Positions 26,101 to 28,055 of a DNA stretch of 64,000 nt are shown here, piece by piece. Under the pieces are notes generated by a model. It was given only the letters and a program-made list of their open reading frames with translations. It made no database searches and was not told the origin of the DNA. The position numbers and the translations under genes were made by a program. The stretch comes from Sulfurimonas paralvinellae (lineage in GTDB: Bacteria; Campylobacterota; Campylobacteria; Campylobacterales; Sulfurimonadaceae), in contig NZ_CP041406.1 in the NCBI RefSeq assembly GCF_014905135.1, positions 434,001 to 498,000 of the forward strand, read 5' to 3'. Numbering within the stretch: position 1 is the first letter of the stretch; the number at the start of each line of letters is the position of its first letter.

Positions 26101-26847
26101 GTGAAAGAGCTGATAAAAGTAGAAAATGTAACAACGCGCTTTGGAGATAAGCTTGTTCATGACGGTTTGAATCTGACGATACATGAAGGGGAGATTTACG
26201 GGCTGCTTGGTCCAAGCGGCTGTGGTAAGACGACTCTGCTGCGTGAGATGGTTTTACTGCAGGATATTGCCGGCGGCTCAATTGAGATACTTGGCAAAAG
26301 TCTTAAAAATATAAGTGAGAAGGATGCACAGAGTTTACGATATCGGTGGGGCGTGCTTTTTCAGTTCGGTGCTCTTTTTTCATCTTTGACAATCAGAGAA
26401 AACGTGGCATTACCTCTTGTTGAATATACGAAACTATCAAAAGAGATGATCGATGAGATCGTACGATTTAAGATCAATCTTGTAGGCTTGAAACCTGAGG
26501 ATTCAAATCTTTACCCGTCAGAAATAAGCGGTGGTATGCGAAAAAAAGCAGGCTTGGCACGCGCTTTGGTGATGGACCCGAAACTGCTCTTTTTGGATGA
26601 ACCGACAAGCGGACTTGATCCTATTTCGGCTCGTGAATTCGACAATCTTATTTTGAAACTGAGAAAAATGCTGGGACTAACAATAGTAATGGTAAGTCAT
26701 GATCTGCACTCCATATACAATACTTTAGATAAAGTTGCTATAATAGACAATAAAAAAATAGTATATGAAGGAACGCTGCAGGGATTGAAGTCAGCAAAAA
26801 GTGATTTTATCGATGCTTTTTTTGGGGATAATAGACCTCTTTCATAA
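26101..26847 (+). CDS. mlaF: MlaF-type lipid ABC transporter ATPase
   Basis: The 248-residue ATPase powers the MlaE permease. Walker A is GPSGCGKTTLL, the signature is EISGGMRKKAGLARAL, and Walker B is LLFLDEPTSGLDP with a following SHDLHS switch His. It starts with GTG two bases after mlaE. The last codons (Arg-Pro-Leu-Ser-stop) lie inside the left arm of the palindromic element at 26833-27100, so the C-terminus may have been altered when that element arrived. Confidence 0.94.
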   Translation: MKELIKVENVTTRFGDKLVHDGLNLTIHEGEIYGLLGPSGCGKTTLLREMVLLQDIAGGSIEILGKSLKNISEKDAQSLRYRWGVLFQFGALFSSLTIRENVALPLVEYTKLSKEMIDEIVRFKINLVGLKPEDSNLYPSEISGGMRKKAGLARALVMDPKLLFLDEPTSGLDPISAREFDNLILKLRKMLGLTIVMVSHDLHSIYNTLDKVAIIDNKKIVYEGTLQGLKSAKSDFIDAFFGDNRPLS

Positions 26848-27100
26848 CCTCTGATACTCTTCAGAGGGCTAAAAAGAGTTAAGATTGTGAAAAATCTTTT
26901 TTGAAGCGTAGCTGTAGCTACAGTGATGAAAAGTTTTTTGCAAGATTGATTCTTTTTAACCCTCCCTTTGGGTAAACTATTGCATGCAATACTCTGCGTT
27001 GGATAACCTTCGCCATAGTAAAACTATGCCAAAGAACATCCGCCTTGATTATCTTTTGCACTAGTTTACTGAAGAATATCAGAGGTTATGAAAGAGGTCT
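26833..27100. mobile_element. 268-bp nested palindrome, MITE-like element
   Basis: A 32-bp left arm (26833-26864, AGACCTCTTTCATAACCTCT...) matches the reverse complement of 27069-27100 at 31 of 32 positions. Between the arms lie two further imperfect palindromes: about 26865-26964, centred near TAGCTGTAGCTA, and about 26972-27068, centred on CATAGTAAAACTATG. The whole can fold into a three-arm structure. There is no ORF. AAT flanks both sides and could be a short target duplication. The left arm covers the mlaF stop and the right arm supplies GAAAGAGG, which serves as the mlaD ribosome binding site. A MITE or a structured intercistronic RNA element are both possible. Confidence 0.75.
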
Positions 27101-27101
27101 A

Positions 27102-28055
27102 ATGAATAATAAAGTCAACTATACACTTATCGGTATCTCTGTTTTGGCAGGTCTTGCTTTGCTGTTTGGCTTTGCTTATTGGATGCTCAAACCATCGAGC
27201 GATCAAGAGATGCAGAAGTATCTTATCTATTTCGATGAGTCTGTTTTGGGACTCAATCTCAATGCTCCCGTAAAATACAGAGGTATTAATGTTGGGAAGG
27301 TTGTCAAGCTGCGTATCAATCCAAAGAACACAGAACAGGTTGAAGTAACGGTCGATATTTTAAAAAGTACGCCTATTAAGGAAAATACCGTTGCGAAATT
27401 AACAGCGCAGGGTATTACAGGACTTACTTACATCAACCTCACGCAGGGAAAAAATGATGCTCCGCCACTTAAAGCAAAAGAGGGTGAAGCCTATCCTGTT
27501 ATAAAAACAGTTCCCTCGTTTTTCGAACACTTGGAAAACTCACTTGGTGATGTGTCGTCTCAACTCTCCGCAACACTTTATAAAACACAAAAACTTCTCA
27601 ATGATGAGAATCAACAGCAGATGGCTTTGCTGTTACAGCGAACAGCCAGTGTCATGGATAAATTCGATCGTATTCTCGATGAAAAAACGATCGTTCACTT
27701 CCAAAAAAGCATGAGTAACCTGGATCATATTACATACAAAATAGATAATAGTGTTCTGCCAAATGTAGAAAAATTTGTAGATCAGAGTGTTGCCTGGGAA
27801 CATAAGATAAACAACTCTTTTGAATCAATACAAGAGACATATCTGCGTATGGATAAAACGATGAAGAATATGGGCGTGAGCTTCTCAAAAGCACAAATAG
27901 GTTTTGATACGATGAGCCACAATGTAAACAACACAATGTTGGAGAGTCAGAATGTTATGATAGACCTGCAAAATACACTCGATGACTTTAGACATAATCC
28001 GTCCGCAGTTTTATATAAAAAAACAGAGCCAAAACCTGCTCCGGGAGAGAGATAG
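27102..28055 (+). CDS. mlaD: MlaD-type MCE-domain lipid transport protein
   Basis: The protein binds and passes lipids in the periplasm and is anchored by one N-terminal helix (about 8-29). The MCE domain spans about 37-120 (GLNLNAPVKYRGINVGKV, GITGLTYINL). A long helical tail follows, with little similarity expected between species. The start at 27102 gives 317 residues; the ribosome binding site AGAGG comes from the right arm of the palindromic element. An ATG at 27045 inside that element would add 19 non-family residues and is rejected. Confidence 0.92.
   Translation: MNNKVNYTLIGISVLAGLALLFGFAYWMLKPSSDQEMQKYLIYFDESVLGLNLNAPVKYRGINVGKVVKLRINPKNTEQVEVTVDILKSTPIKENTVAKLTAQGITGLTYINLTQGKNDAPPLKAKEGEAYPVIKTVPSFFEHLENSLGDVSSQLSATLYKTQKLLNDENQQQMALLLQRTASVMDKFDRILDEKTIVHFQKSMSNLDHITYKIDNSVLPNVEKFVDQSVAWEHKINNSFESIQETYLRMDKTMKNMGVSFSKAQIGFDTMSHNVNNTMLESQNVMIDLQNTLDDFRHNPSAVLYKKTEPKPAPGER

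Follow-up and report, generated by a model that had tools for sequence, protein, structure and literature searches.

A probable MITE of a class-wide Campylobacteria family, with a covarying fold, at the mlaF-mlaD junction of Sulfurimonas paralvinellae

Among the described elements closest to the one considered here, the Correia elements (NEMIS) of Neisseria are non-coding, bounded by terminal inverted repeats (TIRs) and about 107-155 bp long, with TA termini; they are folded in transcripts and co-transcribed with genes, and a control of adjacent mRNA by RNase III has been proposed (PMC2229807). The BOX and RUP elements of Streptococcus pneumoniae are folded, with their TIRs paired, and 36 annotated genes take the stop codon at their 3′ end from BOX (PMC3049150). 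TIMEs, miniature elements derived from Tn3 and 262 bp long, contain conserved stretches in their core, have similar RNA folds by prediction and are believed to move in trans; they have Tn3-type 38-bp ends and duplications of 5-6 bp, and are mostly single copy (PMC4133298).

The junction between mlaF and mlaD in the stretch of Sulfurimonas paralvinellae DNA that we analysed (64,000 nucleotides, hereafter the window) holds a 268-bp segment that is very probably a MITE of a class-wide Campylobacteria family, one that has a conserved covarying fold, has likely been moved in trans by IS5-family transposases and includes a subfamily whose ends may double as a gene junction. We found no earlier description of MITEs from Sulfurimonas or Campylobacterota in the open-access literature searched, and the family is apparently both large and undescribed.

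The element between mlaF and mlaD

All features described here lie on the + strand of the window. The complete non-autonomous element occupies 26833-27100, boundaries that are exact because a duplicated AAT flanks it on the left (26830-26832) and on the right (27101-27103), and it is without any ORF of at least 60 codons. Its left TIR (26833-26864), the 5′ strand of stem P1, has stops in all three frames within its first 22 nt and is complementary to the right TIR (27069-27100), the 3′ strand of P1; taken as arms of 33 nt each (26832-26864 and 27069-27101), the two are 97% complementary, and the end type is AGACYTCTTKCATAACC. Inside lie two hairpin domains, P2 (26864-26964), drawn from the minimum-free-energy fold and covariation, and P3 (26972-27069), with a conserved internal-loop motif, CUGCGUU (26994-27000) and GCCUUG (27042-27047); at their junction is a mini-hairpin, CCC-UUU-GGG (26964-26972), whose pairs are near-invariant class-wide (alignment columns 142-150). 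An earlier, sequence-only reading of this DNA had described a 268-bp segment with near-perfect terminal inverted repeats and internal palindromes, and it did so accurately.

The same reading had placed the end and stop of mlaF in the left arm and the ribosome binding site of mlaD in the right arm, which is what we find. The ATPase gene mlaF (26101-26847; Pfam PF00005) extends by 15 nt into the left arm; from this arm come the residues R-P-L-S at the C-terminus of MlaF and the stop TAA (26845-26847), the last four codons before the stop coming from the element as judged by comparison with the ends in relatives. Within the right arm is a Shine-Dalgarno-like GAGG (27094-27097), fully paired in the predicted fold, and 4 bases 3′ of it mlaD begins (27102-28055; Pfam PF02470), its ATG (27102-27104) overlapped by the right-hand AAT. 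Pfam matches in the operon are to MlaE, the ABC ATPase, MlaD and an ABC_trans_aux lipoprotein. That the other operon junctions measure 0-3 bp, as had been stated, is correct for mlaE/mlaF (+2) and mlaD/lipoprotein (0) but not for cheW-like/mlaE (+8), nor for the overlap after the lipoprotein gene.

That the segment is an insertion is borne out by empty sites in relatives. Of the 30 genomes whose junction was read, that of the window among them, 28 have a mlaF-mlaD gap between -11 and +16 nt, and the element is absent from the junction in nearly all relatives; this comparison of spacing, one of the checks proposed for the locus, indicates that the element is not conserved there. The nearest relative, with a MlaF that is 88% identical, has GGGGATATGAATGAATAATAAAG at the junction, as against GGGGATAAT, the element and then AATGAATAATAAAG in the window. 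At the level of sequence, this comparison shows an insertion at an AAT overlapping the original mlaF/mlaD junction (...GGGGATAATGAATAATAAAG...), with the AAT duplicated. On the simplest reading, the insertion duplicated AAT, swapped the end of mlaF (...DNE* to ...DNRPLS*) and gave the old mlaD start a new Shine-Dalgarno sequence.

Besides the window, only genome G067 departs from the short spacing; it has at the same junction a very diverged member of the family with other ends (ATACCAATCCCCAC...; covariance model E = 6e-27), so that the mlaF-mlaD junction has been hit twice. This member (L302, G067:C270, about 1362-1622), which inserted independently in a second species, scores nearly equally on both strands, and its two domains therefore look like inverted copies of one another.

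A dispersed family and its partner insertion sequences

A search of the genome and its relatives, likewise proposed beforehand, found multiple dispersed copies. The genome of the window has six: the window's own, three further full-length copies that are 86-87% identical, a fifth at 72% and a sixth that has 80% identity over the interior and different ends. A covariance model built from 24 copies and used for both the genus and the class searches detected the family in 71 of 135 genus genomes and, class-wide, in 40 of 298 genomes and 16 of the 58 genera sampled. By record name in the collection scan, carriers are mostly Sulfurimonas, with some Sulfurospirillum, 'Helicobacteraceae', Campylobacterales and Epsilonproteobacteria bins. 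When plasmid and phage carriage of the element was looked for, there was no match.

Of 65 copies with type-A ends (AGAC[TC]T...), 41 are flanked by an exact duplication of 3 bp (AAT 21, ATT 18, ACT 2) against a mean of about 18 with the flanks permuted, a mean that is high because the target itself is restricted to ANT. Type-B ends, GGGCACCTCTAAAAACC, are carried by about a quarter of the copies examined and go with a 4-bp duplication (TTAA, TTTA, TAAA or ATAA), exact in 13 of 23 against a permutation mean of about 4. Elsewhere in the class, copies also come with a third end type, TTATTACGCC..., or with one of several more. In relatives there are also palindromes of 51-142 bp that have type-A ends but unrelated interiors (L106, L107, L109, L116, L117 and L119), some of them containing stretches like GTCATTGCGAG...GCAATCT.

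The ends of the type-A MITE are matched by those of a 906-bp insertion sequence (IS) in genome G075 (L105, G075:C23:7256-8161), which has an ATT duplication and a transposase with HTH_Tnp_4 and DDE_Tnp_4 above the Pfam cut-offs; its best NCBIfam match is IS5 (transpos_IS5_4), with a score that stays under the curated cut-off owing to the division of the reading frame into two. An IS5-family DDE transposase together with a 3-bp ANT duplication is found in the ISL2-like group of the IS5 family, a candidate donor of the type-A ends. The two frames of this transposase (148 + 167 codons) could reflect programmed frameshifting or a broken copy. The type-B partner is an IS of 1254-1300 bp with the same ends as the type-B copies and a DUF772 transposase, present in G075, G078, G090, G117 and G155.

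It is likely that copies have been moved in trans by IS5-family transposases that recognise their ends. No DDE_Tnp_1, DDE_Tnp_4 or DUF772-type transposase was found in a search of the window's own genome, and the copies there are therefore probably immobile at present and the window copy fixed. The suggestion that the segment is a MITE has held up on dispersed copies (in this genome and in relatives), empty sites, target duplications and IS with matching ends, and the window element shows every feature of a MITE that could be tested.

Fold and interior

Folded as RNA, as had been advised, the element reaches -114.1 kcal/mol against a shuffle mean of -55.3 (z = -13.4), and none of 200 shuffles was as stable. 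The fold of the family comprises a long terminal stem, two hairpin domains and a mini-hairpin, with changes on both sides at 53 of 92 pairs in the first alignment and at 87 of 98 class-wide, covariation counts that call for caution in that distant members were gathered with a structure-aware model. Among four close copies of the window's own genome, all four terminal-stem changes are compensated. Retained beyond pairing are the hairpin CCC(NNN)GGG and the internal-loop motif CUGCGUU/GCCUUG, and length is near-constant, at ~267 nt, across families. One copy (L114, G077:C107:92769-93060) measures 292 bp, with ~25 extra nt (around CCCCAAGGGCATTTCCTACGGGCAA) inserted close to the apex of its first hairpin domain. 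Two others (L027, G023:C10; L037, G031:C1:1829141-1829256) are shortened, part of the interior gone and both ends kept, and the join in L027 sits at mutually complementary hairpin apices.

Two candidate signs of an RNA function were tried and rejected. Counts of G-U versus A-C pairs had been considered as a mark of selection on the + strand RNA, but the G-U excess in interior helices recurs on folding the reverse complement and is therefore a folding bias. A known RNA family was also rejected, no Rfam score being above the gathering threshold: 20 loci that hold distant members gave no match at that threshold, and the window gave only sub-threshold matches at chance level.

What maintains such a fold? 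A purely selfish MITE, in which the fold would be a by-product of palindromic DNA and the layout of stop codon and ribosome binding site whatever a tight junction tolerated, falls just short of an even prospect in our estimation. It accords with the observation that both strands fold and covary about equally, the + strand being slightly more stable in 20 of 24 cases, and template-switch correction of palindromes can imitate covariation. Against it, families share the internal-loop motif and a near-constant length of ~267 nt, and interiors persist while ends change.

The last point is best seen in the folded interior of ~215 nt, which is framed by different transposon ends, two of the end types matching two different IS5-type elements. 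In the clearest pairs, as in loci L022 and L033, interiors are 95% identical and ends about 54% identical; it follows that the interior did not arise as the leftover of any single IS. We tentatively entertain, as somewhat less probable, a cassette of structured RNA (or hairpin DNA) that has its own function and would spread by acquiring the ends of whichever IS is active. One interior in two end types with matching autonomous IS, several further end types, and the high interior identity despite unlike ends all fit such a cassette. No function, partner protein or transcript is known for it, however, and the change of ends could partly be gradual drift, type-A and type-B arms aligning at about 56%. 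If ends were exchanged, one possibility is recombination with the very small end-only palindromes. The usual view is that MITE interiors are leftovers of the parent transposon, whereas in this family conservation lies in the interior and not in the ends, and because this conserved interior is seen with the ends of different IS, selection on a mobile non-coding structure becomes testable.

Start-codon subfamily and comparison with described elements

We collected copies with the right arm of the window element (TCAGAGGTTATGAAAGARGTCT) regardless of the genes around them. All eight, from three genomes, end 1-3 nt before a downstream start codon, against 0 of 79 other genus copies (p about 2e-11), a regularity that counts against the purely selfish MITE. 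The downstream genes are mlaD, gmhB, nth and a gene at G000:C1:101825 in the window's own genome, murG, pnp and one small gene in G031, and polA in G071. Of these copies, two are shortened in the interior and another consists of no more than a fragment of the right end. Within 22 nt, the left arm of the subfamily presents TAG, TAA and TGA, one in each of the three frames, and five of the eight copies have an upstream gene that closes at or in the left end: mlaF and the genes before gmhB, murG, pnp and polA (by eye, we take those before gmhB and murG to be gmhA and ftsW). The AAT duplication is present in two of the seven copies with both ends read (mlaD and polA), and its absence on both sides of the others may reflect later change around the start codon. 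The description of the element as wired into the mla operon was thus apt, and it extends to the whole subfamily. With moderate confidence, we take the subfamily ends to double as a gene junction. Because the element brings its own stop codons and ribosome binding site, the downstream gene is apparently not cut off, and the subfamily offers a natural example of a mobile element able to enter tightly packed operons, even before murG, pnp and polA.

Such a junction would work as follows. The left end would bring any upstream reading frame to a stop, at TAG, TAA or TGA, and the Shine-Dalgarno sequence would come from the right end. In the mRNA the arms would pair, hiding the mlaD ribosome binding site and bringing the mlaF stop beside the mlaD start, until a ribosome terminating on mlaF opened the stem and exposed the site, so that mlaD translation would be kept coupled to that of mlaF across the insert. 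In the predicted mRNA fold, the unpaired probability of the mlaD Shine-Dalgarno sequence is 0.00, and about 0.4-0.5 with the mlaF stop region held open, which suggests, as far as a model can, that mlaD translation stays coupled to mlaF. Coupling cannot be the rule, since two copies, the one before nth and the one at G000:C1:101825, are not directly preceded by a co-directional gene.

Does the family regulate genes more generally? Sense and antisense copies at tandem sites, by simple ORF calls, stood at 35:8 in the first set, almost all from the genus, but at 15:14 among 60 copies from other genera, an independent set called in the same simple way; we therefore rejected orientation as a sign of a general 5′-leader function, and a general regulatory role for the family is not supported. 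The lack of an orientation preference outside the genus is what a purely selfish MITE would show, as is the intergenic position of most genus copies, with start codons 7-387 nt off. In the genus, right ends face gene starts and gene ends at about 69:12, and other genera have no such bias.

A fixed, signal-sensing, riboswitch-like mla RNA that sets the MlaF:MlaD ratio and is not mobile could draw on the very stable fold and the buried mlaD ribosome binding site but is very improbable, given that the element is not conserved at mla in relatives, that copies precede unrelated genes, that Rfam offers no family at the gathering threshold and otherwise chance-level matches, and that a consensus scan found no promoter or intrinsic terminator in the element. 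As a single-copy regulator it is rejected by the six copies in its own genome and the empty junctions of relatives. A fixed mla regulator is largely refuted as the sole explanation; secondary recruitment is possible, and a structure setting the MlaF:MlaD ratio, as the sequence-only reading had suggested, would be compatible with the modelled fold.

Returning to a MITE moved in trans, we offer as a possible but doubtful extension that the ~215-nt structured module, its fold conserved throughout the Campylobacteria, persists by pairing with various IS ends, one lineage having turned into a portable junction between genes that inserts at start codons, with stops in three frames, a folded spacer that holds stop near start and a ribosome binding site opened by upstream translation.

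How does the family compare with described elements? Like Correia/NEMIS it is non-coding and bounded by TIRs, but its 268-bp length, ANT duplication, IS5-type ends and four-part covarying interior (none is reported for Correia/NEMIS in PMC2229807) set it apart, and it does not group with them, having ends AGACYTC... and an ANT duplication against TA termini and a Neisseria-type TIR. BOX likewise supplies stop codons to upstream genes; BOX and RUP differ in being mostly confined to pneumococcus and relatives and in sequence, and in the passages drawn on here no subfamily whose end is the ribosome binding site of every downstream gene is described. Unlike TIMEs, the window family has IS5-type ends, many copies and several end types on one core. 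The IS5-family partners (in G075, G078 and others) share the terminal sequences and the duplication type, but the element lacks a transposase gene, and the partner IS has a different interior. The family is thus different from the known MITE-like kinds in its class-wide conserved interior, in the several end types found per interior and in its start-codon subfamily.
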